From assembly GCA_963920705.1 (NCBI GenBank), contig OY987237.1:12926601-12990600 (forward strand): 64,000 nucleotides of DNA. Reading direction: 5' to 3'. A model generated the notes under the pieces. It saw only the letters and a list, made by a program, of their open reading frames with translations. It had not been told where the DNA came from and did no database searches. Every line of letters starts with the position of its first letter. Positions within the stretch are counted from its first letter, which is position 1. This DNA comes from Odiellus spinosus (taxonomy: Eukaryota > Arthropoda > Arachnida > Opiliones > Phalangiidae). Of this stretch, positions 915 through 45,340 are shown piece after piece. The position numbers and the translations under genes are program-made.

Positions 915-1322
915 ATGGACAGTTGCGGAAATCAAACTTGGAAAGTTGGCGCTGTTAATGTAAGTACTTTAATAAGAAATATCTTTAATTAAAGTCGTAT
1001 TTTACAAACCAACAAAACTGGTTTAGTTAGAAATATAATTATTTTAAATATAGTTTGTGAAAACAGTGTTCAAAAAAATAATAAACCCACTTTGTAATTG
1101 CTTATAGCACGCGGCTTTTCATTTAACTCAAGTTGATCACAAGTGGATTGGTGTTGATGGAAGAGACTTTGAGATACTTAAAGTTTTATCGGACAGATTG
1201 AACTTCCGGTACGAATTGATACCGTCAGTAGACAAACAATGGGGATCGTGCAACGACGACGGTATCTGCGGAGGACTGGTCGGAATGGTTGTAAGAAAGG
1301 TAATTGGATTCCTGACCAGTAT

Positions 1323-1653
1323 CAGAAGCCGATGAAACCCTCCTTTGAAGTCTCCAATGTTCCATATAGCGCTCCTCTCTGTATGGGTAAAATTCACAAT
1401 TTTACGAGTTAGAAGGGGTCCTACTTCATTCCCCCTGTCTACGCAAAATTGGAAATTCTCTCTCTCCACAAACGACGACGTTTTTTGGACGAACTCCAAG
1501 GCTGCTAGAGATATTCGCTCGACGAGCTCCCGCTCCGAAAACATCTACCGTTAGGAGGCGTACGGATCGCGCCTTTTGAGAATAACCCATACAGAGAGGG
1601 GTAGACAAGACCCGGGAGTAATAGACTTCAAAGGAGGGTTTCATCGGCTTCTG
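1323..1653. mobile_element. MITE family 1, copy 1 (in IR-1 intron)
   Basis: Long terminal inverted repeats starting CAGAAGCCGATGAAACCCTCC and ending with the complement. Flanked by a perfect 7-bp target duplication CCAGTAT (1316-1322 and 1654-1660). No transposase frame; the open frames inside are shadows shared by all copies. Confidence 0.9.
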
Positions 1654-2056
1654 CCAGTATGTAATGTAACGTATACGAGAGTTTACTATCCAATAGGAAA
1701 TTGATATTGCCATATCTTCAATGACGTCAACGGCAGCTCGGGCCAAATACTGCGATTTTTCGTACCCTTATTTTCAAGACGAATTAACTTTTGTCACCAA
1801 GAAACCAGATATGAAAATGGTCAACAGCATGTTTTTCGTCAAACCATTCCAAATTCAAGTTAGCAATTGTTATACAATTTTGTCATAGTTTATATCTTCA
1901 AAATTTTAAAGTGAGGTTGTCACGGATCCTTCATGAACTCCAAATAGAAATTGAGTACCATTTTCGTAAAGATTGTTAAAAATCGATTCAAAATATATAT
2001 ATGTCATAGAACAAAATTACAGCGACAGTAAAAAATTTATTTCATAATTGCCATTA

Positions 2057-2382
2057 TTGTTTAAATAGGCCTAATCCACTAGTGAAAAAATTTACAAACA
2101 AATATTAAACTAGAAATAAATTTAAAACTTACCCGGAAAATAGGCTTAGCGGGATTCATGGAGATCCTGATTTCCTCGCGAATAAGGTCTAGCGACCAAT
2201 CGAACGCGATTGTAAGTCTATTGGAGATCTCGCGTGAACGATGGGCCTTTGCTCATTGGTTGCTAGACTTTAAATCAAAAATAAAAATGAAATTTTTATT
2301 TCTAGTTATGGATATTCGTAGTCGGATTTTTGAGTATTTTAATTTTGGTGACAAAAACGATGCATTGGTTGAATTTATTTGA
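2057..2382. mobile_element. MITE family 2, partial copy
   Basis: Shares GTTTAAATAGGCCTAATCCAC, the TTAAACTAGAAATAAATTTAAA stretch and the GGATTCATGGAGATCCTGA segment with copies at 14856, 18252, 26898, 40998 and 44409. Only part of the fold-back structure is retained. It lies where the TM1 exon of IR-1 would be expected. Confidence 0.7.
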
Positions 2383-3909
2383 AACAAAACTGTTCGAACT
2401 GCAAAATTTAACTGCCATAATTCTAAAACAAGGTATTTAAAATGTTTTATTTCTTATTGGTTACTGTTGACTGTTTATTTTATTTCGCTTTCCATTGGTC
2501 TGTAGATATCAAAAACAACCATATTTTATGACTACTAAATAGACGAAGAGCTTAGTTTGATGGTCTTTGGTACATTCATAGACCAATGAAAAGCGAGATC
2601 AAATAAGAAAACATTTTAACCAACCAGAAGAGGGGGAAAAAATCTTTAGGAGTGGGATTTAGATGGAATCAAGGTATGTGAAGAGTACCACCATTCAATT
2701 TTTTTCTGAAAATCAATAAACAACAGCCAAATTCAATATCGACAAAAGATAATTATCTTTGCGCGAACTACGGTTTGTCAGTAAAACCTTGAATGGCACC
2801 TCCCTTAAAATCCAAGGCCAGATTCCGAACAATCACGTGTAATCTTGATTAAAACGTTTCTTTACTAACCTTGAACAATCTACCTGGTGGTGGGAAACTC
2901 TGGAACTAAATTAGTGGTCACTTGTCCCGATAAAGTGTTTTTTGCCACGGGATCTATAGTCAGGCTAGATTTTTTTTAATAGTTCTATGGTCGCTTTAAC
3001 AATATCAAGACTAATAAATGAAAATTTCAGACGCTTCGATACCAACATCAATAAACGAATCGCCAAGTCTAATCATCGTGGCATTTCTCATAGTTCTGGT
3101 CGGTTGTACTTGCAAAATATACGAATGTACTTTAACTTCCGCGACTAGCTTGACCACCGCTTCTCAACCGTTGGATAAGTTGGAAGATATGATAGGAGCC
3201 ATTAAAAACCAGGATTACGTCATAGGAACCATCGTCGGTAGCGCCCCTTATTATCGAATAATGGTAATTTGATATTAATGAAAAACGACACGAGCTCTAC
3301 GAGATTCCATAAATGTTTTCGTATTTAGTCATCTGAACTGGAATATTTGAAAATATTCGCTAATTCTACTAGGAAGAAAGGTTACCAACTACATAGATCT
3401 CACAAGGAAGGACTGATCAGGGCCTTAAATCAAAATTTCGCTACCGTCGGAGCGAAACTGCTTTTGAAGAAAACCGCCTTGGAATCCGGTTTGGATCTAT
3501 CCAAATTTCATTTCGCCAGCGATTACTTATTCATGGATCAAAATTCAGTTGTTTTTGGACGAGATTTTCGTTGCAAGGATGTAATTAACAAATGGTAAAT
3601 TACCGAATGCTTGTAGTTGTTTTAAGAGAAATATTACCCGAAATCAAATTTCGGTTTTTTAATAGTTTGGTGGTGTTGGCCGGTGCGGGTCTAATGACCA
3701 AATGGGAGATGAGAAGTAACTGGCGAATGAACAACGGGACGGCGAAACACACGCCCAATGAGAAATACATCGATTTCAGCGATTTGAAACTGGTCATAAT
3801 TGGTCTAATCTTGGCATACTCTTTCGCTTTAGCGGTTTTAGAGGTCGAAATTATTTTTTCTTTCATTTCTAAACTGTATTTTGGGCTGCGAAATAAAATG
3901 AGACAATAA

Positions 3910-5065: not shown

Positions 5066-5315
5066 GTTAGTCGCGTTGGCAAGTTCGGATCTGATTACTT
5101 AATGGGACATGGAAAGTAACTGGAAAATGAAAAAAGCGACAAAGGCGGATAGATCTAAACAGAATTACATCGATATCAACGATGTTTTTCAGGTCGTACT
5201 TGTTCTTATCACTGGATACGCTTTAGCATTGTCAGTTTTTATTGTCGAAATAACGCATTCCCGTATGTCTAAATTGTACCCCGTGTGGAGAAATAAAATC
5301 CAATCTATTGACTGA
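5066..5315 (+). pseudogene. orphan TM4 exon of the IR family
   Basis: The 250 nt match the last exon of IR-2/IR-3 in size, splice phase (tatag then G completing a Trp codon) and sequence: KYID-like NYIDIND, a TM4 segment with ITGYALALSVFIVE, and the C-terminal WRNK motif before the stop. The usual TKWEM is interrupted by a TAA at 5100-5102. None of the other seven exons is present nearby, so this is a fragment left by duplication or deletion. Confidence 0.85.
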
Positions 5316-6566: not shown

Positions 6567-8971
6567 ATGGATAATTGCAAAAATCAAACATTAAAAGTGG
6601 CTGTTGTGGAAGTAAAAAAATATCAAATATTCAAAGTGAAGCTGTCCCCATTATTTATTTAAATGTTATTTTTAGTTTTAACATTATAATATTAAAGGAC
6701 TATATTTAAAATTTTATACGCTTTCTTGAGAAACTTCAAAATTAAAATGTCAAATATATATAAATATATACGACGTAAATTAATATAGAACTTTTTGGAT
6801 TAAGTACTTATACGAAAAAGACCGCGCGAAAGCGATCTTATCACGTGCTAGAACGCGAGAATCAACTATAAACGTTACAATAGCCACGCGTCCATGGTGA
6901 TGACGTTTCGCGGTGAATATTTTATTTTAAAAATTTAGAAAATAGCGATTATAAAATATATTTTTATTGCCGCTGTAATTTTTTTCTATAATATCCAAAA
7001 ATGTGACAGTTTCACTTGAAAAATTCATAAACTCTTCAAGCGCTATAGATATTTAGGATATTCTTAAATTGTAGCAATCGGCTATGCATTTGAAGAAAAT
7101 TGTCGATCAATGGAAAGGCGTGAGTGGGAGGGACTTCGAGATACTGGAGTTTCTATCGAACAAAATGAATTTCCGGTAATTAAAAATAATCAAGGTAGGA
7201 TACTTCGAAGAACGCTAATTAACGACAATAATTATCTTAACAATCAGATACGACTTGGTTATACCCTCCGACAAACTTTGGGGATCTTGCGATGACCGGG
7301 GAAATTGCAGCGGAATCATTGGAATGGTCGCCAACCGGGTAATTAAAAAAATACTTTGGATAGTAGATTTTCATCGCTTTATCATGGAAAATAGAATTAA
7401 GCTTTGGCCTCGCATGTACAATTTTTAAAGGAGGGGTTTAGTGTAGATCGAATTGGGGTATCTCTACTTCCGGTAGCGCTCCTATTGGAGCAAAATGGCA
7501 GAACCAATAATAGACTTGGGTTTTTAGTTCTTTCCTATATGGGAAATATACCCCGTTCAATCGCGTATCACTGATTCCCGGAAGTTGAAGGACCCAGTTT
7601 GGAATGAGACAGCTATCAACTGAATTTACAAATTTGTTAATCGTAACCAATTAACGATAGGAAGCGGATATGGCCATCTCTTCATTGACCAAAACGGCAG
7701 CCAGAGCTAAATACGTCGAATTCTCAACCTCCTACTTCCAAGACGTGGTGACTTTCGCCACCAGGAAACCAGATACGCGACTGACCAACAGCGTGTTCTT
7801 CACCAAACCATTCGAGTCTCGAGTAACGTTTGAAAAAGACGAAAAATGATTCGATTTAATCCATATTTATTGTATCCAGGTATGGATCTCCGTGGCCTGT
7901 TTCGTATGTATTTTCATAGCGATGACCAAAATATTAGATTGGTTGAAGGTTTCGCGGTCAAAGTTGTTCCGAGTGAAGAATTTGATATCCATATTACTAC
8001 GACAAGGTAATTGTACTATTGAACAATTACAATCCTGACTCGAATCCATTTTGTTACTTTGATTGTTGATAAGCAGACGTTTCGTTGGAAATGGCGACTA
8101 GGGAATCTCTAAGTTTAATAATCGCGGCCTCTCTGTTAGTATCAGCGGGTTGCGTTAATAAATTATACGAGTGTACGCTAACTTCGGCCACAAGTTCGAC
8201 CTCTGCCTCGAGACCATTGGATACGTTGGAAGAAATGGCAGACGCCATCAAAAATGAAGGTTACAGCATAGGAGCCACTTTTGGTACCTCTACGTATTAC
8301 CAAATTCTGGTCAGTCGTATACGTGATTTAGACGCGTCTCCACACGCAAAACAATAAATATTTGCATTCATCTACAGTCATCGCGCTTAGAGCATTTGAA
8401 ACTATTCGCCAACTCTATGAAGCAGAAAGGTTCCGAGAGGCATCGAAGTACCATGGAAGGATTTATCAGAACGTTAAACGAAAAGTATGCCCACATCGAA
8501 TCCAAGACTGGTCTAAAGAAAATCGCCTTGAATGCTGGATTAGACTTATCCAGATTCCATTTTGCCAGAGAGTACGTCTTTTTGGATCACTTGGCAATAG
8601 TTTATGGAAAAACATTTCGATGCAAAGACGCCGTCAACAATTGGTAAATTCGTTTTTCCTTTAATAATTATGGGGGCAATCTTGCTTGGGTTTTGGGCAC
8701 TTATTGGTTTTTCATTGATAGTTTGTATATCTTGGCTGGTTCGGATCTGGTGACCAAATGGGAGATGAAGAACAATTGGCTTCTGAAAAAAAGCATCGCG
8801 ACAGACATCAAATCCAATCAAATATACATCGAAATCAACGATTTCAAACTGGTCCTATTTGGACTCGTCGTTGGATTCGCCTTGGCATCTTCAGTTTTAA
8901 TCATCGAAGTGAAATTTATGCGGATTTGTAAATTGTATTCCGTATGGAGAAATAAATACGTTTTTCACTAA
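6567..8971 (+). CDS. IR-2: ionotropic receptor-like protein, intact
   Basis: Exons 6567-6611, 7075-7175, 7248-7338, 7661-7822, 7880-8006, 8077-8309, 8378-8643, 8722-8971 splice to 424 codons plus stop with all GT..AG borders and phases consistent. Residues 1-133 form S1: sequon NQT at 6-8, W60-G, Cys63/Cys69, EADMAIS from 80, and Arg94 where AMPA and kainate receptors bind the ligand alpha-carboxylate. TM1 is about 135-152, the pore loop ends LLRQD at 172-176, TM3 is about 189-205 followed by YECTLTSATSS, S2 spans about 215-342, and TM4 is about 385-403. Known iGluR/IR family members are ligand-gated cation channels in the plasma membrane, many of the insect IRs being chemosensors. The start is the ATG conserved at the same place in the paralogues; an in-frame stop lies 34 nt upstream. 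No signal peptide is visible. Ligand and channel activity are unknown. Confidence 0.88.
6633..7017. mobile_element. MITE family 5 (AAAGTGAGGCTGTCAC ends), copy in IR-2 intron 1
   Basis: Ends AAAGTGAAGCTGTC and GTGACAGTTTCACTT are inverted repeats. The interior shares TAAGTACTT..ACGAAAAAGAC..CGCGAAAGC..CGAGAATCAACT with the copy around 28783-29402. Related ends occur at 1909, 9294, 38440 and 63363-63540. Confidence 0.7.
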
Positions 8972-10184: not shown

Positions 10185-13100
10185 ATGGATAATTGCAAAA
10201 ATCAAACATTGAAGGTGGCCGTTATGCAGGTAACATAGTAAAATATGTCAGAGTTATAACTAGGTAACTGTCGAGCGAATGAAACTTATTATAAATTAGC
10301 ACGTATCGGTACTTATTTGGTTAGGAATTCAGAACCATCTCGTTAAACCGGACACGAAACTGCTGACTCGATTCGGGCCTCGTCTAATTAATTTAGCGAA
10401 TTTAATCACGAGAAGTAGAAATTATTCTCGAGGCTGATTTAACATAGATTATCCGAGGAAATGGGATTTCCCAATCGGGAAAAAAAAATCAGATTTTGGT
10501 TGAATATGATCCAAATTGAACTCTCTTGAAACTGATATCTGGTTGATTCCTATTAGATTCTGGTTATGGGGTGACAAATTGTAAGCCAGTGGTTTAAGCG
10601 AACATATAACTTTGAGAAATTATATTTACAATGTTAACTAGACTAGATTATCCAGATAAAATGAAAGCGGGAATGGTGTTTGGTAATGTAGGCCTAGGGT
10701 GAGTGCAAAACTGCAAACGCGTAATTAATAATTTAAAATATTATCACGTTAATCGTTAGCACAATGGATTTAATTTGAAGAAAATTGGTAACAAATGGAT
10801 TGGTCTCGACGGGAAAGAATTCGAACTAGTCAAGATTCTATCGAATAAAATGCATTTCAGGTAATTAAAAACCAAATCATTATTGAATCTTTCCATTTTA
10901 TACAGGTGCCCCGTACAAAAAACTAAAGATTAATTAATATTATAATAAGTATAATTAATGATAATTTGAACTATTAGATACGAGTTAGTTATTCCAGACG
11001 ACAAACAATTGGATCTTGCGACGACCGGGGCAACTGTACCGGAATCGTTGGAATGGTCGTCAGACGGGTAAATAGCATTATGAAATAGAATTAGTCCTTT
11101 AGAAAATCGCGTCACAATCAAATCACGACTGTTGGATCAGTTCTACGAAAACAGAAAACGAAACTGCTCGGAATTTCAAGAACTTTTATTAATTGGCTAG
11201 ACTTTCTGAAGTATATTCAAATATTATTCATCTGATAAAAATACTATTTATCATTCCAGATAACTAAATCCCAAAATCGCAACTTATCTTAGAATATTAT
11301 CCGCGTTATACGTTTGGATAAGTCAATTTAAAAATCCATTTTCTTGAAAACTAAAAATTAAAATTTACACTTTTTTTCGAATTTTAAATTAATATGAAAT
11401 TTATTTCTTTTATTTTCCCCGAATTTTAAAAAGTTGATTTTCTTATCCATGGCTATACGTTTTAATTCGAGTAACATGTTAATAGATCATTCATCAAAAG
11501 ACTATCTTCGGATAAACCCAATACTCATTTAACTTTCATCGAATTATAAAATTTGTTTAATCATATAATCACTAACAATACATCCCAAAATAAAATATCC
11601 GAAAAAATTTAAATAACAGAAAATAATGGCTGTTCCTAGCATTAGAAAAGGGGCAGTTCAAAAATTAATATAAATTATTCGACTAAGACGTAATCTTAAG
11701 TAATTAACGTAGGAAGCTGATATGGCCATTTCTTCACTGACCACAACATCAAATAGAGCCAAATACGTAGATTTCTCGACTTCTTACAGCCAAGACGACA
11801 TTATCTTCGCCACGAAGAAACCCGATATGAAAATCGTCAATAGCGTATTCTTCGCCAAACCTTTCGAACCTTCGGTAACAAAGTGATAATTCTCTAAATC
11901 CATAATATTAACATTAATATAATATTCGCAGGTATGGATTTCCGTAGCCTGTTTCCTGATTGTTTTCATAATGACGATCAAATTACTGGAACGCTCAAAG
12001 TTTTTGCCCCCAAACTTATTCGGAGTTAAAACCATGATTGCCTTTTTTCTACGACAAGGTTAGGACGATAAATCAGATTTCTATATCGGTAATTTAATCT
12101 GGTAATTTACGCCATAAATTGTTTGCTCTGATAAAACTAGCAAAATAGTAATTAATAATTTACAACTTTTTGGATTAAAAGTTTTAAATCGTCTACGAGT
12201 TTACTTTTGAATAATTATTCGCGTTTGAGGTCGTTAAGGACGTGTTTGAGTTACTTTAACCTATCATTGCTATCATGCATAAACTCAAATTCTCCATTGC
12301 GCATGTCACACGAGTGTAGGAGTTGCAGTCAGGAATAAAAAAATTGAAGAGTTTGAAAGATGAATTTTGATTTGAAAATTCACAGAAATTAAAATGGAAA
12401 TAATTTTGTAAATACTGGTAAATTTCCGAAATTACGGTTATTTTTGAATTCCATAGTCAGAGGGCGTAGATCTTGGATACATTTGGTAACGATTGTTCGT
12501 AAAACACAGACGCTTCGTTGGAATCGGTGGCTAAAGAACCTCGCGGATTAATTATCGTGGCTTTCCCGCTACTTTTGGCCAGTTGCGCCTGTAAAATGTA
12601 CGAATGCTACTTAACGTCGGCCACAAGTTTGACTTCGACTTCTCGACCATTGGATACGTTGGAAGACATAAAGAACGCCATTCAAAATCAGGGCTACACC
12701 ATAGGTGTTCCCAAAGGAAGCGGCTCTTATAACAGAATTATGGTTAGATAAACACCCTTTGAAAGTAGTTCCTTAGAGCCCCCCCCTCCTTCCCCAATAT
12801 CGTCAAAGCTTCAAGTTTGCGTCTTTTCGTATTTAGAAATCGAATCTGGAATACTTTCAAATTTTCGCAAATGCCATGAAGAAGAAAGGTTTCGAGGCAC
12901 CTCGAAACATCGAGGAAGGAGTGATCAGAACCTTAAACGAAAAGTACGTCAACATCATGGCCAAAATAATTATCAAGCAAACAGCCTTGAAGATGGGTTT
13001 GGATCTATCCAAATTCCATTTCACCACCGATTACCTATTCCCGGCTCCACAAGCGATTGCTTATGGAAAGAATTTCCGCTGCAAAGAAGCCGTGCATAAA

Positions 13101-13711
13101 TAGTAAACTCACTACTGTCAAATTAAAAATAAATTTGGCTACGATAAACTAAAGACCCGCTAAGTCGATCCAATCTTTCGATACAACTTGATCAGTCACC
13201 AAATATCTTGTTCGAGAAAAATTGGATCGTTCATTCGAGTCGCTATTAAATTAAATTCAAACGATAGAAATTGGACCAGGAGTATTTGAGTAACAATGAG
13301 TAAAGAGTCTTCGACGTAACCATTTAACTATTTTAAATGATAAAAACCTTTTATTTTCGCGGGCTTTAGTTTTTCGCAAAAACACCCTTATTTCTGAATT
13401 ACTTCCCCCTCAACTTGCCACCAATAGGAAGCTGAAATATACAAAGACGTTTGTTTTTAATTGATAGTTTGTTAATGATGGTTAGCTCTAATCTCGAGAC
13501 GAAATGGGAGATGAAGATCAATTGGAAGATAAACAAAGCCACGGCGACGGACAGTCTTAATCAGAAATACATCGATTTTAAAGATTTGAAACTAGTCCTA
13601 GTTGGTCTTATTGTTGGATACGCATTGGCATCGGCAGTTCTAATTATAGAAGTTATCCATTCGCGGCTTTGTAAATTGTACTCAGTCATGAGAAATAAAT
13701 TGGATTGCTAA
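10185..13711 (+). pseudogene. IR-3: receptor copy with a 1-nt deletion in exon 3
   Basis: Exons 10185-10229, 10760-10860, 10978-11067, 11713-11874, 11932-12058, 12510-12742, 12837-13102, 13468-13711. All but the third have the family length; the third is 90 instead of 91 nt. The lesion is at the invariant Trp: relatives read CAATGGGGATCTTGC, this copy CAATTGGATCTTGC, which shifts the frame through the Cys pair. Everything downstream is open and well conserved (EADMAIS, R in SNRAKYVDFS, LRQD, YECYLTSATSL, TM4). At the exon 7/8 junction TGG has become TA+T (Tyr) with a valid donor TA/GTAAAC, so that is not a stop. Either a very young pseudogene or an assembly error. Confidence 0.8.
11150..11620. 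repeat. family 7 element, diverged copy in IR-3 intron 3
   Basis: Contains GCTCGGAATT near the left, GTTATACGTTTGGATAAG and TTCTTATCC words shared with introns of IR-4 (15640-16075), IR-6 (25958-26455) and Trio (62400-62690). Limits are approximate. Confidence 0.5.
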
Positions 13712-18237: not shown

Positions 18238-18251
18238 GAAGTAAAATCGGG

Positions 18252-22500: not shown

Positions 22501-22653
22501 TGGAAGATGGGCAAGGCGACGGCGAAGAAGGGACCCAAAGAGAAATACATCGATTTCAACGATTTTAAACCGGTTCTCGGCTGTCTAATTATTGGATACG
22601 CCATGGCATTGTTTTTTCTAATAGTCGAAATAAAAATTCGGGGATTCGTATGA
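19513..22653 (+). CDS. IR-5: ionotropic receptor-like protein, intact
   Basis: Exons 19513-19557, 20660-20760, 20813-20903, 20963-21124, 21188-21314, 21395-21627, 21723-21988, 22446-22653; 410 codons plus stop. S1 begins MDNCKNKTLKVATMP (sequon NKT); Cys pair SCDDRGNC; EADMGISS; Arg in TSRAKYVDFS. TM1 is VWISFACFLIIFLTMT, the pore loop ends LLRQG (the ancestral Gly, where most paralogues here have Asp), and TM3 leads to YESYLTSAISL, with Ser in place of the Cys of the YEC motif. S2 ends FQCKDALNK. TM4 contains CLIIGYAMALFFLIVE, and the C-terminal tail is the shortest of the array. Intron 1 (1.1 kb) and intron 7 carry repeats. Probably a functional receptor-like gene; ligand unknown. Confidence 0.87.
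20262..20425. repeat. inverted-repeat element, inverted relative of 404-556
   Basis: Shares ATGCACTGTCAAAG, GTGTACAGCGAATTCAAGAGTG and the GGGGTCAGGCACTC-type end with the first copy, in opposite orientation. Located in IR-5 intron 1. Confidence 0.55.
22047..22392. mobile_element. MITE family 4, copy in IR-5 intron 7
   Basis: Left end AAAAGTAAACACCGCCGCGTAGC and right end with the inverted CGAGGCGTTGTTAACTTTTAT. The interior (CCTGTCTCACTCGAGTGG, GGCGGGCCGCGCTTG, GCTAGAGTGTCTCGAATCAG) is shared with the copy at 35588-35862 in IR-8. Confidence 0.75.
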
Positions 22654-30926: not shown

Positions 30927-33231
30927 ATGGGAGTTTATGGAAACCGGACCTTAGTGGTGTCGGCCATAAACGTAAGTACAATTAGAGCCGTGTTCCCAAA
31001 TCTCAAGAATTAGAATAAGATTCCTTATCGATTAAATAGGACTAATCCACCAATAAAAACAATTTACAAACAAATATTAAATTAGAAATAAATTTAAAAT
31101 TGAATCAGAAAATAGGATTAGCGGGATTCATCGGGATCATGAATTTTTTCACGTAGGTACTAGCTAAAATAATATCTTTTTCGATTCGGGAAGTCATTTT
31201 ATTATAGTAATTATTTATAAATATACATATTTAGACATTATCTAGTCTAAGTGGGTTTTTAATAACTCGTATAAGGTCGCGTGATTAGCGCTGTTCCGTT
31301 AATGACTTTTAGAAATGACTTTTGGATCCCAAGTAGGTCCATTTATGATCAAATTGAGGTTTTATAAATTTTTTACGCTATTTTCCACCCAAAAAACGGT
31401 TAACTCAAAATTCTCGAAACCAAGTTTCCTTGTTCCTTCAATCTTACGTGCAATAACTTGAAATTTACATTTTTATATTTTGGTTATTTAATTCTATAGG
31501 CAACCGTGTTTGAATTAGTCAATGTGTCCAACAAACTACTGGGCGTTAGAGGCAGAGACTTCGAGATCCTCCGAGTACTTTCGTCTAAGATGAAATTCAA
31601 GTAATTACTTTTTGAAAGTTTCTAATGTCGATGACAACTGCCCCGGTGTAGACTCGAACCATCGACCTCTTGGGTCGTGTTTCCGTCTCGGGGTGGCATC
31701 GCGAATTAAAATGGATAACCGCTTCCACTTGGAATTAGCTAATGAGTTTAGTCGAGCTCAAGTACTTGTCCTATAGCTTGGCGCTGATCTCCGAAAGTTG
31801 AATAGACCAGTTTGGATTAGAACAGTTACTAACTAAAGTTCCTATTCATTTTACTATATTTTTTACGGTTATAGGTACGTCCTAGTGACGCCCGATGATG
31901 AAGAATGGGGTGATTGCGACGACAAGGGATATTGCAACGGACTAATAGGAATGGTAACGCGTCACGAAGCGGACATGGCCATCGCTCAAATCTCTAGCAC
32001 CGCGTCACGGGCCAAGTACGTCGATTTCTCGAACCCCTACTTTCAAGACGAGGTGACAATCATCACCAAGAATATCGAAGCTTACCAAGATGTCAACAGT
32101 TTATTTTTTATTGAACCATTCGATAAAATAGTAAGTATTCTAAATCCTTAATAAATAATTCATAAATATTGTCGCACCTATCATAGGTCTGGATATTCTT
32201 GACGTCTACGCTTTTAATATATGTATTATTATATAAAATCCTGAAATACTTTCAAATATTGAGAACTGAGATGATGAGCGTACAGACGATGCTGGCAATT
32301 ATATTGAGACAAGGTAATTAAACGATCAGAAATACTTGAAGTCTAACGTAACTTTCCTTCGCGTTTTCTCCGTTAGGCGTTAATTCTCAACGAAACCGTG
32401 ATAAGTTATCAGTTGTCGCGACATTACTGGTTTTCGTAGTCACCGCGGGATGTATTTGCAAACTCTACGAAATCGTATTGGCATCATCGACAACCTTGAC
32501 CCCTGTGACTCCGCCCATCGATACCATCTCGGACATGGTGGACGCCATTAAAAACAGGGATTACTTTATCAGCTATAAAACAGGCAGCGCTTACGATCGA
32601 ATATTCAAGGTACCTAACCTTTACTCAAATTTCTTAAGACTGGCGAATCAAAGGAATCTTAATTACAGACCTCGAAGTTGGAATACATGAAAATCTTCAC
32701 CCACTCAACGACGAATAGAAAATTCGAAGCGCCAAAAACGGTCGAGGAAGGTATATGGTTGATGTTAAACGAGAAATTCGCGCAAGTAGCCGCTAGAAGC
32801 GAAATGAAAAGTTTAATCATGAAAATGAATCGATCATCGGGGACTTTTCACTTTGCCAAAGAAACTCTTTTCGCCGAACACATCGCAGTAGCTCTCAACA
32901 AAAACTTTCCCAGCGTGGAAGACCTCAATAAATGGTATTCACTAGATCTCGTTTAGATTCCGAGGTTAAAGTTCATTCTTAATCCAATTATATATATAGG
33001 TTAAGTGTTTTAGTCGCATCGGGATTAATTGAAAAATGGAATTTCGATGACGTGACTTTTTTAAACCAATCAACGAGGGGTAACCAGGATGCCAATTCAT
33101 ACATCGCCATGAATGATCTGAAATTTGTCTTCGTGGCTCTCTTTTGCGGATATTTGTCCGGATTTATTAGTTTACTGGTGGAAATGTTTACCAATTATTG
33201 TTATACTCATTTGCCAATCGGGTCCATATAG
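30927..33231 (+). CDS. IR-7: ionotropic receptor-like protein, second subgroup, intact
   Basis: Exons 30927-30971, 31500-31600, 31875-32130, 32187-32313, 32377-32609, 32669-32934, 33000-33231; 419 codons plus stop. Exons 3 and 4 of the first subgroup are fused (256 nt = 91+165), with one extra codon. S1 starts MGVYGNRTLVVSAIN, Cys pair DCDDKGYC, HEADMAIAQ, Arg in ASRAKYVDFSNPY, and ends FFIEPFDKI. TM1 is VWIFLTSTLLIYVLLY, the pore loop ends IILRQG, TM3 leads to YEIVLASSTTL, S2 has KEGIWLML-type helices (here EEGIWLML) and ends LNKW, and TM4 contains FCGYLSGFISLLVE. Together with IR-8 it forms a subgroup marked by the fused exon, ATLLVFV TM3 start and LASSTTL. No signal peptide. Confidence 0.87.
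31012..31150. mobile_element. MITE family 2, left-arm fragment in IR-7 intron 1
   Basis: Carries GATTCCTTATCGATTAAATAGG, AATCCACCAATAAAAACAATTT and GGCTTAGCGGGATTCAT-like words in family order; the right arm is absent. Confidence 0.65.
31637..31700 (-). other. tRNA-like 3' half, probably a relic
   Basis: On the minus strand the segment reads GGTCGATGGTTCGAGTC followed by an acceptor-like CCGGGGCA, i.e. a T arm with the GGTTCGANTC box and the 3' acceptor strand. A full cloverleaf is not present: the D arm and anticodon arm cannot be drawn. It could be a tRNA pseudogene or the end of a tRNA-derived SINE in IR-7 intron 2. Confidence 0.35.
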
Positions 33232-34511: not shown

Positions 34512-37500
34512 ATGGACGTTCAAGGAAACCAGACATTTGTAGTGGCCGTCATGCACGTAAGTACAACTGTACTGTACTTTCCCCAAAGTCTCTACACGAA
34601 CTTTGCCCGAAATCCCTAAATATCTATGAGAAATTTGTACTCAATCGACTTGATTTTGAATGCCGATAGAGCGGCTTAATTACTGGTGTCAAATTATGAA
34701 TAATCTGCCTCTGAATAAAATATTAATACAGGGCTTCCACCAGTGCCCTAAAATACGTAAAAGCCCCCTTTTAAATGACTATGCTCCTAAAAATACCCCA
34801 AAAATGCAATTTGGTCCATAAAATAATAATTTAAGAAAATATCTCGATAGTCTTGAATTTTTCCACTTTGGGTGGGTCAAAATACTAAGAATTCATTTCA
34901 TGAAGGGAAGAATTCTTACAAGTACTTTTCACTAAAAGAAATCTGATATTTCTGGCACATTTTGAAATGTGGCGCCATAAACTTCACGAGCTATAGGGTC
35001 CTTATTTTATTCCAATTTAAGAGTTTTGGTTCCTATTTTGCCCAATTTTAATAGTAGAAAGACCCGTTTTCCTCTATATTCGGAGTTAGGTTGGAGTCCC
35101 GCCTATGTTTTCCATTTATTATTCGATAGTTCGGTGCTTTTCAATTGAAGAAAGTGGGCAACCAGCTTGTTGGTGTGACAGGAAGGGACTTCAAGGTGTT
35201 ACAAACACTCTCGTACAAGATGCGTTTCCAGTAATTATCCTAATATAAATCTATATAGTGTCTGAGATATTTTTTTAAATATTTGATTATGTCGTAGGTA
35301 CAAGTTGGTAAAGCCGTACGACGGACAATGGGGCAACTGCGACGACGATGGTCGATGCAACGGTCTAGTTGGAATGGTGGCTCGTTACGAAGCTGATATG
35401 GCTATCTCGGAAATTTCGTACACGGCGTCAAGGGCCAAATACGTTAACTTCTCTTACCCCTACTTTCACGACGAAGTTACTTTCGTTACCAAGAACATCG
35501 ACGCTTACGAAGAAGTCAATAGCTTATTTTTCACGGAACCATTCGATAAACGCGTAAAACATTAATGAAAACAAAAGTCCATCACTTCCATAAAAGTAAA
35601 CAGCGCCCCGTCAGCAAAACGTACCCCATCACTTTAAACTAGCCAAAGTCATCACCCCTGTCTGCCTCGAGTGATTTGGACTCTTCCTGGATATTTTGGT
35701 CGGGAGAGAGGGACAGAATTTAGGCGGGCCGCACTTGTCTATAATGTCTTCCCTCCCAACTTCGTAATTTCTCCGTTCATTATTTACATCGACTGTGGTC
35801 GCTAGAGTGTCTTGAATCAGAATCTGATAGTATTAAGCTGCGGGGTGTTGTTTACTTTCAAGGAATAAAATTATATACTTTTGATAAAATATCCGTATTT
35901 TCGTATAATTCCGGTCAGGTCTGGATATTCTTGGCGTTTTTGTTGGCCGTATTTGTATCAATAGTTAAAATCCTAGAATACTTTGAATTATTGAAAACGA
36001 ACATTACGAGTCTACAGACGATACTGCAAATTATACTCAGACAAAGTATAAGAAACAAATTATATTTCCAAGACTACCCACTACCGGAACTTTCTTTTTT
36101 ATGTCTTAGACGTTAATATGGAAGGTAAGGAGGATAAACCATCGGTTGTCACGACATTACTGGTGTTCGTAATCACGGCGGGATGTACTTGCAAACTTTA
36201 CGAATGCGTTCTGGCATCGTCGACTACTTTGGACCCAACCACTTCGCCCATTGATACTATCTCTGATATGGTCAACGCCATTGAAAAGCGAGATTACGTC
36301 ATAGGTGCGGCGCGTGAAAATTCTTATTATCGAATAATAGCGGTAAGTATACACCAAATCATACAAAATCTAATCCAAGAACGATTGGCGACTTCCATTT
36401 CTGATACTCAGTAACGCCATAAATACTAGTCGAAAAAAGAGGCTAACCATTTTCAAAAAAGTCGAACTCTGAAAGTGACCAGAAATAGTTAATGCCACAT
36501 TCGTCCTACGCGGAAAAAATAAACAAGAGCAGACGATATATTGGACAACGGCCAACCTTAATTACCTCCTTGGAAAAAAATTCAAATCTATTTGTACCGG
36601 TTATAGGGCTCTAAGTGGGCGGGCGACGACCTAGGAGCCGATGAAAGTTGGCCGTGGGAGAAGGTAGTAGTCGCGTCTCAAGCGAGTGGTTCCTCAATGT
36701 GGAATAAAATGAAACCTGGTCCCAAAATAGCGAACATTAACCTAATATTCAACCATTTTTAAATTTAAACCACGCTTTAGATCAGAAAGCTCAAGAGAAA
36801 TTACAAAAAAGCGTGACACAGTCCAGGAAAAAATTCCTTTTGGTGGCTTTTAGTGACTAAAGTCGGAAAAAAGGGCTTAGTACTATTGGATCGAAATTCA
36901 TTTGATCGACACAGGGTCCATTAGATCGAAATTCAATGGATCGACATGCAGAACCAAATGATCGACACTTAAAAAAAGAAGATTCAAATGATCGACAGTT
37001 AAAAAAGATTGAGTGGAATAGATAGAAGTACCATTGGATCGACATGCAGAACCAAATGATCGAAAATATCAAATAAAATATCAAATAAAATTCAAAAATA
37101 CTTGATACTGCATAGATTTAAAAATCGATTAGTTAATTTAAAACCTATCGATTTTTAAATCCATGCAATATTAAGTATTTTTTAAATTAATTTAATAACC
37201 TAACCTAACCTAACCCTACAAAACGCAATAATTTTATATATTAACCAAATAATTTCGATTATTTAACACACCATTTTCACGATGAGGATTCAAACTCAGT
37301 ATCTTTTTACAATCCATGCTGGCTACCCTTTCGGGCAACGGGTCATGGCATCTCAATTAAAACGAGAGAGACTGTCGATCAAATAAATTTCGATCAAATG
37401 GGGCTATTCCGTCGATCAAATGAGACACACTGTCGATCAGATAAATTTCGATCCAATGGACCCTTTGTCGATCGAATGAATTTCTATCTATTGGTAAAAA

Positions 37501-38331
37501 ACGAGAGAGACTGTCGATCAAATAAATTTCGATCAAATGGGGCTATCCCGTCGATCAAATGAGACACACTGTCGATCAGATAAATTTCGATCCAAAGGAC
37601 CCTTTGTCGATCGGATGAATTTCTATCTATTGGTAATATCCCGGAAAAAAGTTGGTTTTAGTGGAAAAACTGACTCAGAATCGTTTCTAATGCTAGATGG
37701 AAGCTAGTCCTTTTGGCACTCGAGTAAAGTTTCAGCGGCGCCTAATTACAAAAACCTTCATTTCAGACGTCGACGTTGGAATACATGAAAATCTTCGCCC
37801 AGTCAACTTTTAAGAGGAATTTCAAGGCACCGAAGACAGCAGCTGAATTGATGAAAATTGTGTTAAAGGAGAAATTCGCCCTAGTGGCCGCTCGAATAAC
37901 TATGAATCGAATTCTCATCGAAATGAATCTAACATCGGAGATAATCCACAGCGCCAAAGAAACTCTTTTCGTCGATCACATGGCTGTTGTTTTCAATAAA
38001 CAGTTTCCCCGCAAGGATGACATCGATAAATGGTAAGGTTCTTGGTTGTCAAGGTTCGAAGGTTAAAGTTCAATCTTCTTACTACGATTTCAGGTTAAAT
38101 ATTTTAGTTGCTTCGGGGTTAATTGGCAAATGGGAGTCCGAAGACCTGTCACTCCTAAAACAATCAACGAAGGGTACTAAGAACACCTGCGCCAGTTCTT
38201 ACATCGCCATGAGTGATCTTAAATTGATCTTCGTGTCTCTAGCGTGGGGACATTTGGCTGGATTCATCATTTTACTGATGGAAATTATCTCCAATTATTT
38301 GCATACGCGTTTACCAAGTGGGGTGATCTAG
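34512..38331 (+). CDS. IR-8: ionotropic receptor-like protein, second subgroup, intact
   Basis: Exons 34512-34556, 35130-35230, 35298-35553, 35919-36045, 36110-36342, 37767-38032, 38094-38331; 421 codons plus stop. The start aligned with paralogues is 34512 (MDVQGNQTF); an in-frame ATG at 34506 would add two residues. Cys pair NCDDDGRC, EADMAISEI, Arg in ASRAKYVNFSYPY. TM1 is VWIFLAFLLAVFVSIVK, the pore loop ends IILRQN, TM3 leads to YECVLASSTTL, S2 has ALVAAR and ends DIDKW, and TM4 contains LAWGHLAGFIILLME. Same fused exon 3+4 as IR-7. Intron 6 (1.4 kb) is filled by a GATC-rich satellite-like block. The exon 5 donor is AAA/GTATAA, so the split codon becomes Asn. Confidence 0.87.
35588..35862. 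mobile_element. MITE family 4, copy in IR-8 intron 3
   Basis: Ends CATAAAAGTAAACAGCGCCCCG and the inverted CGGGGTGTTGTTTACTTTCA. About 275 bp; the same family as in IR-5 intron 7. A single end also lies at about 40540-40575 in IR-9. Confidence 0.78.
36880..37640. repeat. GATCGAAATT/GTCGATC-rich satellite-like block in IR-8 intron 6
   Basis: The first part (36880-37080) repeats GATCGACATGCAGAACCAAATGATCGA-like words. About 37098-37180 is a long palindrome (ACTTGATACTGCATAGATTTAAAAATCGAT and its complement). The last part is a tandem pair of about 139 bp starting ACGAGAGAGACTGTCGATC at 37362 and 37501. Every sub-unit carries GTCGATCAAAT or GATCAAATGG. Confidence 0.75.
37197..37216. repeat. short CCTAA (telomere-type) run
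   Basis: AACC(TAACC)x3 TAACCC, i.e. about four units of CCTAA. The TTAGG/CCTAA unit is the usual arthropod telomere repeat. It is too short to prove a former telomere. Confidence 0.5.
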
Positions 38332-39751: not shown

Positions 39752-39796
39752 ATGAAATGCGATTTAGGAAATATTACCATTTTAACACTCGAAAAG
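39752..39796 (+). other. candidate first exon of IR-9 with a GC donor
   Basis: ATG plus exactly 15 codons, MKCDLGNITILTLEK, the same length as exon 1 of the other copies and with an N-x-T sequon at positions 7-9. It ends AAG/GCGAGT, which would be a GC-AG donor. A single-base change at position 2 of the donor separates it from the usual GT. Weak but specific in length, phase and motif. Confidence 0.4.
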
Positions 39797-39934
39797 GCGA
39801 GTTATTCAAATTTTATATTTTGTAATCGTAACCTAGAATAAGATTTAATAAACGTAACAGAAGTAGATTTTGAAAAGTCAAAAGCTACGGTCACACTAGC
39901 ATTTCTTTTATCAAATTGATTTTAATCCCTTTAA

Positions 39935-40271
39935 CAGAAGCCGATGAAACCCTCCTTTGAAGTCTACTACTCCAATGTTCCATATAGCGCTCCTCTCGGT
40001 ATGGGTAAAATTCCCAATTTTACGAGTTAGAAGGGGTCCTACTTCATCCCCCCTGTCTACGGAAAATTGGAAATTCTCTCTCTCCACAAACGACGACGTT
40101 TTTTTGACGAACTCCAAGGCTGCTAGAGATATTCGCTCGACGAGCTCCCGCTCCGAAAACATCTACCGTTAGGAGGCGTACGGATCGCGCCTTTTGAGAA
40201 TAGCCCATACAGAGAGGGATAGACAAGACCCGGGAGTAGTAGACTTCAAAGGAGGGTTTCATCGGCTTCTG
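39935..40271. mobile_element. MITE family 1, copy 7, 24 bp before the IR-9 exon 2 acceptor
   Basis: 337 bp with both ends. Its right flank (ATATTAACCTATATATTCGTACAG) is the polypyrimidine/acceptor region used by IR-9 exon 2 and is shared with copy 5. Left flank begins in a family 6 end. Confidence 0.88.
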
Positions 40272-40295
40272 ATATTAACCTATATATTCGTACAG

Positions 40296-43200
40296 GAAAA
40301 TCTTCGACCATTTCTCAAACTGTTCAATGGAACGATCCTGGGTTTCGGCGGTATAGAGTACCAAATATTAAAGATATTATCGCGTTCTTTGGGTTTCGAA
40401 TACAATGTGGTCCTACCCATACAAGAAACTGACGAAAGTTACGATAGAATGTTATCTATGTTGTCTAATCAGGTTGGTATCAAATTTAGTTATCGTTCAA
40501 TAAACTCCATTAGAATATGAACAAAAGTATATCACTTAATTCCATTAAAAGTAAACAACACCCCGTAGCGAAATACAATCAGCAAAGGTCCAAGCAAATG
40601 TATCGGTAGATTAGTGATAGATAAACAATAAAAATCAATATAAATAATCAATGGCTATGATTCTACCCTGAAAAACAGAGTGTCTACGGTGACATTGCCA
40701 TAAATTCCTTATCAGTCACCTCGGACAGAATGAACTACGTTGATTTCTCGACACCATACATTTTTACGGACGTGACTTTCGTCACGCGAGGAAATAATTA
40801 CCAGAATTCGGCCAATCTAGGATTTTTTTACAAACAATTCAGTGTTGAAGTAACAATATATAGTAAAAAGGATAGCATCACGTTCAAAATTAAAACACTT
40901 ATAATTAGCGGAACAGTCAAAATCGTGGAATATCCTCTTCAAAAATAACTACACACTAAGCTAGAAATAATTGTTTTTAATACTTGTAAAGTAGGTTTAA
41001 AGGGAGAATGCAACTAAAAATCAATTTATTATTTTTTTCCCCGTATCGTTATCGTTTAAATTGGCCTAATCCACCAGTAATTATCGAACAAATATTAAAC
41101 TAGAAATAAATTTAAACTTACCCGGAAAAAAGGCTTAGCTGTATTCATGGATATTCTGAATATCTTCGCATTGATGTGTCAGTGACCAATCGAAAGTTAT
41201 TGGAAGTCTCACGGAGATCTCGCCTTAACAACAGGCCCTTTTCTCATTGGCCACTGACCCATCAATGCGAAGAAATTCAGGTGATTTCCATGAATCCAGT
41301 TAAGCCTATTTTGATGGCAAGTTTTAAATTGATTTCTAGATTAATATTTAATTTTAAATTTTTTTAATGGTGAGTTAGGGCTACTTAAACGATAAGGAAT
41401 CAATAAAAAAATCACTTGTTGTTAGGTTGCATTCTAAGTCTAGTTTGAAACGTATATGTTACTGCCGGCTCTTTCCTCACGTGATTCGTCGAAGACTCGT
41501 TAAGAGATATTTAACTCTACATGGAACACTTGATTTCTAGCTTAATATAATTTTTTAATTGCTTTACTGTGGCAACTGTGCTAGTGAGTTAATTACGTTA
41601 GGCGTTAAAATAAAGACATTAACGTGTTCTAAAAACTGACGTGGTAATATCCTTCAACCAGAATTATCCTCCGAATTAAAATTTTAAAATTACGTCTTAA
41701 CGTTTTCAGGTCTGGATCACGATATTCGCGATAACTACCGCTTGGTTCTGCCTAGTTAAACTTTACGACACCTTGATTGGCGGGATTAATCCATTTAATA
41801 TTGTTTTACTTTGGGGAAATGGTAAGTACAATTCTTTCAAAGTTATTTACTAGATCAACGTTCATTTAAATGGGCGTAATTATTTTAAAACCAATTTTAC
41901 TACCGCGAATTAAGTTACTTATAAGGTTGGGGAGTCAGCAAAGGGAGACATTAAAACGTCAATGGTTTCTATCTCTCACCTCGGTGTCATCCCCCTTAGT
42001 GAGGGAGTTCCAATATTTACCCTTACAAGAGCTCCCCCCAGTAAGGAGGTTCCATGACGTCAGGATTTCTTTTCCCTTTGGCTCTTTGCTGTCTCCTTAT
42101 AGTGAAATTAGAAACGCAATCTAACTCGATTTGGACAGCTTGCCGATAGTTGCTATCATAAAAGAGGAGGAGCTTACTTCGGGAACGTTGCCGTCGACGT
42201 CATCAGCTACGTCATAGCTTTTAAAGCTCATAGCGCTCGTGATCACCGAGCATTTCTTAAGCTTATTTTTCTATATCCGTGACAGCTCTAAAGGTCGGGT
42301 CTCTCCCGAGTGACTTCTGACCCCTCTGACCCCTAGCGTTTTATGAAAATGGAAATAACTGCCCCGTATAACCGTAACGACACGTAACTACGTCTCAACC
42401 TTGGAAAAAATGTACCATCTTCCGTATAAACGGGTTCTATTTAACGGCTCTTTTTGTTAGTTTCAAGGTTGGAAAAAGTATAGAAAATCCAATTCTTTGT
42501 ACCAGCCTTGAAAAAAAGGGACCATCTTCAATACAAACGGGTGCTTTTTAACGGCTATTTTATTCGTTTCCAAGATTATTTTATAATAAGGCCTATTCGC
42601 GAGATAAATTTGTCAAGGCAAGAATCGAATCAGGAAACCTTTTTTAAAGATTGGTTTTTGGTTTTCACGAGTGATAAGAATTTATTATCTTTCTGATTTC
42701 AGCTTACAAAGTGGTAAAAAGTCACGGCAGGACTCAAATGTTAATTTACGCGACTTCTACGATTTGTCATTGCGTCTTGTTGACCTTTTATCGGATAGTA
42801 TTAACGACATCGGCCAGCCATTCCGATACGACTACCACCATGGATACCGTTTCCCAACTGATAATTGCCACCATCTACGACGAATACAGAACCGGTTCTA
42901 TCGACGGATTCGGTTACAACCAACTAATCGCCGTAATTATTAATACGCTATTAATTACTAAACCTAAACTAATTTTGGATAGCCAAAATTAAACCTAAAC
43001 TTATTTAGGACCAACAAATCTGTGGTGTAAACTAAGCCTAAAACAATATTAAGAACAAAGAAACCTAAGCCTAATTATTTTTGCATAAAAAAAACCCGAA
43101 GTCTAAAACGGTTTGGTAGATAATTACCCTGACCTTTACAGGTTTTCACTGACCAGTTTTAATATTATTCACGAATTTATTCTTACGAGCGAGCTCTTGG

Positions 43201-45340
43201 CAATTTCCACTTTTTATTTGAGATATAGTTTATCAATCAGTGGCAGGATAGTTTACTCGGAATATGAGAAAAAATCCAAATCTTAAGCAAATATTTTCAG
43301 TTTAAAATAATTACATTAAAATTAAATTGGGTCAACCAATCATAAACAGTTCCTTGACGTGAATCAAAATATTTAATTTCTCAGACCATTTGGGCCAATT
43401 TCCCAATTCCCTGACTTTTCCCTGACCATTTGGGCCATTTTCCGAGTTCCGGGATTATTCCCTGACCTTTTGAGCCAATTCCCAAATTCCCTGCCTTTTC
43501 CCTGACCTTTTGGACGAATTTGCAAACTCCCTGCCTTTTCCCTGACCTTTTGGACGAATTTGCAAATTAACTGCCTTTTCCCTGACCTTTCGGACGAATT
43601 TGCAAATTAACTGCCTTTTCCCTGACCTTTCGGACGAATTTGCAAATTCCCTGCCTTTTACTTGACCTTTTGGGCCAATTTCCAAATTCCATGACTTTTC
43701 CCTGACCTTTGGAGCCAATCTCCCTGTATTTTGGTCCAATTTCCAAATTCCCTGGTCTTTTCCCTGACCTTTTGGGCCAATTTACAAATTCACTGGCCTT
43801 TCCCTAACCTTTTGGGCCAATTTTCAAATTCTCTGCCCTTTCCCTGAGCCTAAGGCTTAACTTTTAGACTATACCATAGTTGCTACTAAATTGGGAAAAT
43901 GAAAGGATTGCTGGGAAAAAGGGGTGGAATTTTTTTAGCCCCTTTATATAAAACTAGATACACGAGCTAAGCCTAATTATTTATTATTATATAGTCATCT
44001 TCAAACACTCAAATGATGCTTCTATCGAGATCGTTAGTTCACAATTCGGAAGAAATGGTTAAGAGCTTCAAAGAGGGATTCGACAAAGTCTTGAATGAAA
44101 AGTTTGCTCTAATTTTGGGTCGAGACGACATTCATAATCAAATCTTTTATAACTACGAAAATGTAACCGAGCTTTTTCACGTGGCTAACGAAGGGTTTTA
44201 CACGGATTACTTCGCCATCGCTTATTCCAAGTACTTTCCGTGTCAAGAAGCTTTTGACAATTCGTAAGAAAGTTTAGTATATTTATAGTGATGCTGTTTT
44301 AGGGTTCGCTTACAAGATTTTTAAAATTAATTTTCCTGATTTCCAAGTTTTCCAGGCTATACTATTCTTAAATTTCATTGTGTATATTTTTACAAAGTAA
44401 AGGTGTCTTTAAAGAGAGAATGCAATCTAACAACAAGTGATTTCTTATCGATTACTTATCGTTCAAATAGGCCTAATCCGCACAAAAAAAAATTTAACTT
44501 AGAAAATAGGCTTAGCTTAATTCATGGAGATCCTGAATTCCTTCACATTGAAGGGTCAGCGACCAATCGAATGTTATTGGAAGTCTCACGGAGATCTCCC
44601 TTTAACGATAGGCCTTTGCTGATTGGTCGCTGACTCACCAATGCGAAGAAATTCAGGATATCGAAGAATCCAGCTAAGCCTATTTTGATGGTTTTAAACT
44701 GATTTATAGTTTAATATCTGTTGGTAATTTGTATAACTGGTGGATTAGGCCTATTTAAACGATAAGGAATCGATAAAAAAACCACTTGTTAGGCAGCATC
44801 AAAAATTATGTTATAAATATAGAAAAATATGTCTGGAAATGTTTTTGGGTTTAACAGTTTTGAGTGCCCTGATTTTCTCAATTAATTATGACTTTCCCTG
44901 TAGAAACTCTGCCAGAGTTTTTTGAATCAATCACTTTCCCTGATAATTCAATATTTTCCCCGTTTTCACGTTTGTACAGATTTCTCACGAAATATATTTG
45001 AAAAATTTAGAGTATCAAAATAAGAAAAATATAATCCAAGTATAGTGGAAGTTTCGATTTCCTTAACTATGTTATGTCCCTATTTCTCCGGTGGATTAGT
45101 AGTAGTATTAATAGTTAAAATATTTTGTCTTTTAACAGTATCCTTAGAATATTCGCGGCTGGACTTATATTCAAGTGGAACATGAAGTTACAATTCAACG
45201 AAGAAAAAGTTTGGCATAAAATGAGAATATCCGGGTTAATTGGAATCAAAGATATGAGATTAGCCATGGCTGCTTACGCCACAGCCCTAATTATCGCTAC
45301 TTTCATTATTCTGGTCGAATATGTGGTAATAATATTTTAA
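40296..45340 (+). CDS. IR-9: divergent ionotropic receptor-like protein, 5' end uncertain
   Basis: Exons 40296-40472, 40679-40849, 41710-41821, 42703-42932, 43995-44263, 45139-45340 splice in frame to 387 codons including stop; with the candidate exon at 39752 the protein would be 401 residues. S1 has GIEYQILKILSRSLGFEYN, then DIAINSL, and retains the ligand Arg in SDRMNYVDFSTPY. The Cys pair loop of the other copies is missing. TM1 is VWITIFAITTAWFCLV; the pore-loop end is LLWGN, not LRQG. TM3 leads to YRIVLTTSASH, S2 has SFKEGFDKVLNEKFALILGR, and TM4 contains AAYATALIIATFIILVE. Exons 2 and 3 are fused, independently of IR-1. Splice phases match the array throughout and every exon is open, which argues for constraint despite the divergence. 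Confidence 0.75.
40998..41438. mobile_element. MITE family 2, near-complete copy in IR-9 intron
   Basis: About 440 bp from AAAGGGAGAATGCAACT to GTTAGGTTGCATTCT, both arms present: CTTAGCTGTATTCATGGA on the left and its inverted CCATGAATCCAGTTAAGCC on the right. It is one of the best copies to define the family ends. Confidence 0.82.
42380..42600. repeat. dispersed repeat, CCTTGAAAAA..CATCTTC..TTTAACGGCT units
   Basis: Two diverged tandem units of about 120 bp (CAACCTTGGAAAAAATGTACCATCTTC and CAGCCTTGAAAAAAAGGGACCATCTTC). The same pair of units occurs at 56700-56890 near DNAJB11. Confidence 0.65.
43384..43860. repeat. 40-bp minisatellite in IR-9 intron
   Basis: Units of CCTGACCTTTTGGACGAATTTGCAAACTCCCTGCCTTTTC, exactly 40 bp apart at 43501 and 43541 and repeated about a dozen times with drift. 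The reverse-strand open frame across it reads as a repeated peptide and is not a gene. Confidence 0.88.
44409..44800. mobile_element. MITE family 2, near-complete copy in the last IR-9 intron
   Basis: Both arms of the fold-back are present, from AAAGAGAGAATGCAATCTAAC to CACTTGTTAGGCAGCATC. Sub-terminal ATTCATGGAGATCCTGAATT pairs with a diverged AATTCAGGATATCGAAGAAT. Confidence 0.82.

Follow-up and report, generated by a model that had tools for sequence, protein, structure and literature searches.

The locus considered here raises the question of how a receptor whose protein begins directly at its ligand-binding domain, without a signal peptide, could place that domain in the lumen of the endoplasmic reticulum (ER). 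The window, by which we mean the whole stretch of 64,000 nucleotides that was analyzed, comes from Odiellus spinosus and corresponds to C15:12926601-12990600 (contig OY987237.1), part of a 443-Mb genome in 286 contigs. It carries nine ionotropic receptor (IR) genes, arranged head to tail on the plus strand between positions 915 and 45340 and here numbered g1 to g9. Judged from its sequence, the array represents a clade of divergent ionotropic receptors enlarged by tandem duplication; they are variant ionotropic glutamate receptors (iGluRs) without amino-terminal domain (ATD) or signal peptide. Taken as a whole, the reading that we prefer and consider moderately probable is that these proteins start without a signal peptide at S1, the first half of the ligand-binding domain, and that the first transmembrane helix (TM1) would act as an N-out signal anchor moving S1 into the ER lumen.

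The gene models were obtained by splice-aware comparison with g2 as the reference, and exons were joined for the eight intact copies. The genes occupy 915..3909 (g1), 6567..8971 (g2), 10185..13711 (g3), 14799..18237 (g4), 19513..22653 (g5), 25024..30051 (g6), 30927..33231 (g7), 34512..38331 (g8) and 39752..45340 (g9). Eight of them encode an intact protein of 401–424 amino acids (aa) in seven or eight exons free of internal stops: 424 aa in g2 (eight exons), 422 in g1, 421 in g8 (seven exons), 419 in g4, g6 and g7 (the last with seven exons), 410 in g5 and 401 in g9. The remaining copy, g3, is frameshifted in its third exon near 11003-11020, as a pseudogene or through an assembly error, and was excluded from protein comparisons for this reason. 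Identity ranged from 24% to 60% when g2, g7 and g9 were compared with the remaining copies, g9 being the most divergent (24–27% identical to the others). The ratio of nonsynonymous to synonymous substitution rates (dN/dS) was 0.20–0.34 in 11 pairs, with dS of 0.80–1.79 partly near saturation, values from which we read that the intact copies look to be under purifying selection. It might be argued that the copies are decaying fragments without a product, in which the ATG exon is merely the part that has survived, and the frameshift in one of nine copies would fit this, as would a relic of the last exon, the one with TM4, which carries an in-frame stop and is not an intact copy (5066..5315, plus strand). 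The eight intact frames of 401–424 codons and the dN/dS values speak against such decay and make it extremely improbable. Introns vary among the tandem copies: g1 lacks the intron between exons 2 and 3 (1197-1299), and g7 and g8 lack that between exons 3 and 4 (31875-32130, 35298-35553).

Membership in the receptor superfamily was clear for S1. The S1 profile PF10613 was above cut-off in all three proteins scanned, with E values of 3e-17 (g2), 1.2e-17 and 5.8e-8. The channel profile PF00060 (Lig_chan) appeared in one of the three at E=0.021 and 15.1 bits, against a cut-off of 30.8, and the other two gave no match at E up to 1. GluD2 was the best solved-structure match of g2 in PDB (1.1e-14), and the alignment with its full-length chain 9nwo opens at residue 6 of g2 and position 414 of the chain; therefore the IR protein begins where S1 begins. 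By hydropathy of the eight proteins and by the alignment, the membrane helices number three; S1 precedes TM1, and S2 is flanked by TM3 and TM4. The absence of an ATD, since the protein starts at S1, fits a divergent IR rather than IR8a/IR25a or an iGluR. An S1 arginine is invariant (R94 of g2) and aligns with an Arg of GluD2, at the place of the ligand-binding Arg of iGluRs; SYTANLAAFLT, the pore motif of vertebrate delta, kainate and AMPA receptors, is not kept in the window IRs. The channel would be a chemosensory IR, perhaps binding a carboxylate ligand, as the invariance of the iGluR S1 arginine suggests.

All nine copies share the layout of their first coding exon: the initiator M is followed by a sequon (residues 5-7) and then by strand beta-1 of S1, and the exon closes at a phase-0 donor. 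A preliminary description of the array, made from the letters of the window alone, had reported a conserved ATG followed by a short exon running into S1, and this was confirmed for all nine copies, with 15 codons in eight and 14 in g6. On the plus strand, these exons lie at 915..959 in g1 (MDSCGNQTWKVGAVN, donor AAT/gtaagt), 6567..6611 in g2 (MDNCKNQTLKVAVVE), 10185..10229 in g3 (MDNCKNQTLKVAVMQ), 14799..14843 in g4 (MDNCKNHTLKVAALN), 19513..19557 in g5 (MDNCKNKTLKVATMP), 25024..25065 in g6 (MDCKNQTLKVAVLH), 30927..30971 in g7 (MGVYGNRTLVVSAIN), 34512..34556 in g8 (MDVQGNQTFVVAVMH, with a second in-frame ATG two codons upstream) and 39752..39796 in g9 (MKCDLGNITILTLEK). The donor is GT in eight copies and GC in g9. 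Met1 forms an invariant alignment column in the eight intact proteins, despite the low identity of g9, and the sequon is found in 9/9 copies as had been described, its N being residue 6 in seven, residue 5 in one and residue 7 in one. Moreover, an in-frame stop lies 0–18 codons upstream of the ATG in every window copy. No AG occurs from that last stop to the ATG in g5, g6 and g9 (19513, 25024, 39752), and therefore a GT-AG intron cannot supply an upstream reading frame there; in g6 the in-frame TAA abuts the ATG, with neither AG nor AC between. The other six window copies have possible AGs upstream, at unlike offsets and phases.

The same start was then sought over the genome. PF10613 gave at least 105 exon matches (with 150 of 197 candidates scored), and 36 places outside the window look like the window's IR family by contig position and profile coverage. 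Nine of these are directly upstream in the same array (C15:12888408-12922265), so the array extends beyond the window; a further array on C11 holds 13, and the other 14 are spread over C2, C3, C5, C15, C17, C33, C47 and C282. Of the 18 further family loci whose upstream DNA was examined, 15 have a start exon of this form on the sense strand. In a chance test, it was found in 7/7 loci of 2 kb fetched for the test and in none on the antisense strand, against a mean of 0.005 per seven loci in Markov-shuffled sequence. Loci L047-L049 belong to other IR families, and L027 is window copy g7. Pattern matches in L019, L022, L036, L044 (6310), L050, L051, L054 (688) and L055 (1779, 1782) were judged to be chance and were not counted.

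Some of these loci have features of their own. In L045, a good start exon, MRGCLNETLLVAVIY, lies on the minus strand at 6279, on the strand opposite to the family match. L058 (372, 1346) and L025 (421, 1146) each show two start-exon-like sequences 0.7–1 kb apart before one S1 segment; the pair could be first exons used alternatively, or one member could be a duplicate in decay. At C282:361001-381000 (L039/L040), two copies that share a start exon stand about 6 kb apart in opposite orientation, which could reflect either an inverted duplication of recent origin or a fold-back in the assembly.

The nine window copies and 16 outside ones together gave 25 distinct copies, L033 being dropped as near-identical to L032. 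Seven of the 25 have no AG from the last in-frame stop to the ATG under the stricter rule used here (under a looser rule L055 would be an eighth), and a purine occupies position -3 in 22. Mean pairwise identity was 57.1% for the exon (21 copies, 210 pairs) vs 28.6% for the 45 nt upstream (22 copies, 231 pairs), with the recent duplicates L025, L034 and L038 left out. No shared acceptor was found directly before the ATG, where AG offsets differ among copies, and the AG that L032, L034 and L038 have at -5 is missing from L025, whose upstream sequence resembles theirs. These values bear out the earlier claim that sequence upstream of the ATG is not conserved and has no common acceptor. In-frame upstream ATGs were considered as starts and rejected: they occur in 3/25 copies (g8, L037, L054) and lead to no 10-residue stretch at the scan threshold of 2.3. 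Initiator elements were likewise set aside as proof of a first exon, since TCAGT, found in 5/25 copies in the last 50 nt vs 1.04 expected (mononucleotide shuffles, uncorrected for the patterns tried), has a counterpart in TCAKT, which is also raised at -50 to -130 (10 vs 4.60 expected).

The chief competing explanation of the start is a missed signal-peptide exon, which the real transcripts would either join to the ATG exon or splice directly to exon 2, bypassing the ATG exon. We scanned the DNA upstream of the nine IR genes for such an exon, which had to open with an ATG, encode a hydrophobic core and end at a phase-0 donor; the stricter scan found 0 vs 0.18 expected by chance, and still 0 when more donors were allowed. 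The same scan, run in all three phases, recovered the signal-peptide exon of a DnaJ-family (DNAJB11-like) gene in the window (56383..56468, minus strand), whose phase-2 donor fits the next exon. A second control came from L047/L048, two paralogous IRs of another family that lie 0.4 Mb from the window genes on their contig; comparison of the two shows the beta-1 exon. As in the window IRs, this exon has a phase-0 donor in both, but it opens at an AG acceptor common to the two, about 60 residues before beta-1. A candidate signal-peptide exon, MQKGLISLLKLLIFLPFICINNG..., with a phase-1 donor that fits the acceptor of the beta-1 exon, was found in L047; no candidate was found in L048 within 873 bases upstream. 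The L047-type IR thus looks ordinary, and the scan appears able to detect a signal-peptide exon of such a kind. Within the eight window proteins, the most hydrophobic 12-residue stretch of residues 1-50 reaches 0.56–1.85 on the Kyte-Doolittle scale, and two signal peptides used as yardsticks reach 2.27 and 2.28; no stretch is as hydrophobic as these, and no usable upstream exon was found.

Several points tell against a start at the conserved ATG and leave room for the missed exon. At least one AG lies between the stop and the ATG in 18/25 copies, where an upstream exon is formally possible; three of the 18 further loci (L043, L046 and the + hit of L045) have no start exon on the sense strand, and a relaxed start-exon scan gave nothing convincing; and, since any match to the start-exon pattern had to contain both an ATG and a sequon, their presence in the copies returned carries no independent weight apart from the 7/7 test. 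In the available text of Croset et al. 2010, moreover, most of the IR sequences annotated there are described as encoding no N-terminal signal sequence and, for that reason, as seemingly 5'-incomplete (PMC2924276). The missed exon is opposed by the seven copies without AG, one of them with neither AG nor AC, by AGs of unlike offset and phase, by the absence of a signal-peptide-like phase-0 exon in 9/9 upstream regions with two positive controls detected, and by the consequence that skipping the ATG exon would delete strand beta-1. We think such an exon unlikely. Initiation at the conserved ATG abutting S1, with no signal peptide, is accordingly the part of the preliminary interpretation that we regard as well supported, because splice-site logic, conservation, 16 further distinct copies and two positive controls agree, and we hold the start codon itself to be highly likely; the exception to the described array is the frameshifted copy at 10185.

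If translation starts there, it remains to be asked on which side of the membrane S1 lies. S1 before TM1 measures 128-134 residues. TM1 reaches 1.76–2.73 over 19 residues, vs a best 19-residue average of 0.49–1.24 in the first 110 residues (Kyte-Doolittle, eight proteins). The exon-1 sequon of all nine window copies, a CxxxxxC pair in S1 in 7/8 proteins, and an excess of K/R over D/E in the TM1-TM3 loop in 6/8 and in the C-tail in 4/8, were counted for a lumenal S1.

Other observations weigh against this orientation or are neutral. TM1 is not strikingly hydrophobic. Its flanks are only weakly positive-inside: the K/R residues after TM1, cited earlier in favor of a signal anchor, do give a net positive charge in 6/8 proteins and fail to do so in 2/8, so that they support an anchor only weakly, and g1 and g2 also carry three K/R before TM1. 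S2, presumed to be outside, has more K/R than D/E in 6/8. S1 has 18 sequons over 1,056 residues, S2 has 9 over 1,425, and the TM1-TM3 loop, presumed to be cytosolic, has 4 over 282. Sequon counts were therefore rejected as a proof of topology, as their density does not discriminate; this slightly lowers the preferred reading and slightly raises its inverted rival. A sequon also stands directly before beta-1 in vertebrate AMPA and kainate receptors, at the homologous site. For these two reasons, the earlier argument that the N-terminal sequon marks a lumenal start turned out to be weak, the loop having nearly the same density as S1. A disulfide between the exon-1 Cys and the Cys of the S2 FxC motif was also considered as proof of a lumenal N-terminus and rejected: all eight intact window copies are concordant, and two of four outside copies break the rule (L032, L038). 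The concordance of exon-1 and S2 cysteines is only suggestive.

In the inverted rival, the N-terminus is cytosolic and the channel lies upside down, so that S1 and S2 together would sense the ligand inside the cell. In its favor are the lack of a signal peptide, a TM1 that is moderately hydrophobic and only modestly biased in charge, and a sequon density in S1 and S2 not set apart from that of the TM1-TM3 loop. It accounts poorly for an exon-1 sequon at a nearly constant place in 9/9 window copies, for the CxxxxxC pair, for the partial co-variation of exon-1 and S2 cysteines (10/12 concordant, 2 discordant) and for the positive loop and C-tail, and we consider it quite unlikely.

With S1 placed in the lumen, the most economical reading of ER entry is that TM1 is the signal anchor, which we find plausible and somewhat favored. 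The signal recognition particle would target the ribosome once TM1 emerges, and TM1 would then insert N-out, so that the S1 segment of 128-134 residues passes into the ER lumen. S1 forms no complete ligand-binding domain until S2 is made; for this reason the S1 tail may stay loosely folded, and thus translocatable, until TM1 meets the translocon. Crossing would probably be through Sec61 rather than the ER membrane protein complex (EMC), for which the S1 tail is too long. TM3 and TM4 would then put S2 outside, where it could pair with S1. According to the available text of Wu and Hegde, translocated flanks of more than 100 aa use Sec61, and those below about 50 aa an Oxa1-family insertase such as EMC; the same source puts the number of N-out signal anchors in human at 1,282, the majority from G protein-coupled receptors (GPCRs) (PMC13220792). 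An EMC substrate is described in the accessible part of Wu and Hegde 2023 as a short, unstructured tail, with 33 aa typical for N-out anchors (PMC10155758). Another possibility is that the start is as described and ER entry is achieved by TM3/TM4, by a partner subunit or by post-translational insertion, and not by TM1 first. The hydrophobicity of TM3 and TM4, roughly equal to that of TM1, would be in line with this possibility, which to us seems quite improbable. Extending entry by an N-out TM1 to the whole clade, with about 45 S1 places in the genome, we would put at slightly better than even that it has discarded both signal peptide and N-terminal domain and brings a half-domain of about 130 residues into the ER lumen in this way.

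The array can be compared with several known systems. With the divergent arthropod IRs it shares the S1-TM1-TM3-S2-TM4 core, the lack of an ATD and tandem expansion. It differs from them in having only about five residues before the sequon, whereas the L047-type IR has a candidate signal-peptide exon and about 60 residues before beta-1. S1 and its arginine align with those of vertebrate delta, kainate and AMPA receptors, GluD2 being the best structure match; unlike these, the array has no signal peptide and no ATD, and Lig_chan is below the Pfam cut-off. Kainate-binding proteins of frog, fish and bird, and the bacterial GluR0, are of iGluR type with little or no ATD; both carry a signal peptide, in which the array differs. 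To our knowledge, this is the shortest N-terminal start of any iGluR-type channel. Type III (N-out signal-anchor) proteins, such as many GPCRs, offer the proposed likeness in that the first membrane helix targets the protein and the N-tail is translocated with no cleaved signal, a scheme with which the sequence here is compatible. Synaptotagmin and neuregulin are further examples of this type. Compared with typical N-out anchors, with 33 aa (PMC10155758, in its accessible part), the tail of 128-134 aa, half of a ligand-binding domain, is long.

As to earlier reports, the available text of PMC2924276 gives N-terminal regions of mostly about 200 aa in Drosophila IRs, with a few of about 400 aa; it also indicates that a signal peptide is often unannotated in IRs and is not used as a defining IR feature. 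An IR25a clone, a different receptor, has no predicted signal peptide and a membrane helix predicted at residues 7-24, according to the part of PMC10223087 that could be consulted. Our literature search found no description of IRs lacking a signal peptide by such a start exon, nor of such a mode of ER entry in the receptor superfamily, in the available portions of PMC2924276, PMC6720082, PMC9840275, PMC10223087, PMC5787247, PMC7738191, PMC11302349 and PMC8956072. N-out anchors are well known in general (PMC13220792, as far as its accessible text goes), so the "new biogenesis mode" proposed earlier would be new for the receptor family and for the length of the tail. The class of divergent IRs is already known; the S1 start and the biogenesis it would imply are what appears to be new.

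Besides the receptors, the window contains repeats and two neighboring non-receptor genes. A fold-back element of about 340 bp, with 41-nt terminal inverted repeats that are 93% complementary at 22873/23215, is present in copies 93–98% identical at 1331-1645, 22873-23215, 25368-25650, 27309-27635, 28946-29267, 38705-39027, 39943-40263, 53445-53766 and 63883-64000, in introns, between IR genes and beyond; a shorter related sequence at 24555-24654 is 80% identical. A second dispersed repeat occurs in introns and intergenic DNA at 2047-2178, 14888-15037, 18258-18405, 26931-27170, 31019-31138, 41046-41409 and 44656-44779, its copies being 83–90% identical to that at 26931-27170. An array of short repeat units at 43377-43860, in an intron of g9, is visible as repeated short reading frames. 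On the minus strand lie the DnaJ-family gene with the signal-peptide exon (54757-56468) and a RhoGEF-like gene (60580-62250), both named from their motifs. Finally, the 7tm_6 profile of the insect odorant-receptor family had only one match in a genome-wide search of the 443 Mb, which suggests a host other than a winged insect, or one with very few genes of this family.

The start of these receptors bears on how IR genes are read. IR models without a signal peptide have so far been taken as 5'-incomplete, at least in the accessible text of PMC2924276; if the S1 starts are real, some of them may lack nothing, and false genes would result from annotation that insists on an exon further upstream. 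If true, the array would also offer natural, repeated cases of a long N-tail moved by a signal anchor, and it would make testable what length and structure of an N-out tail are allowed, and whether Sec61 or EMC is used.

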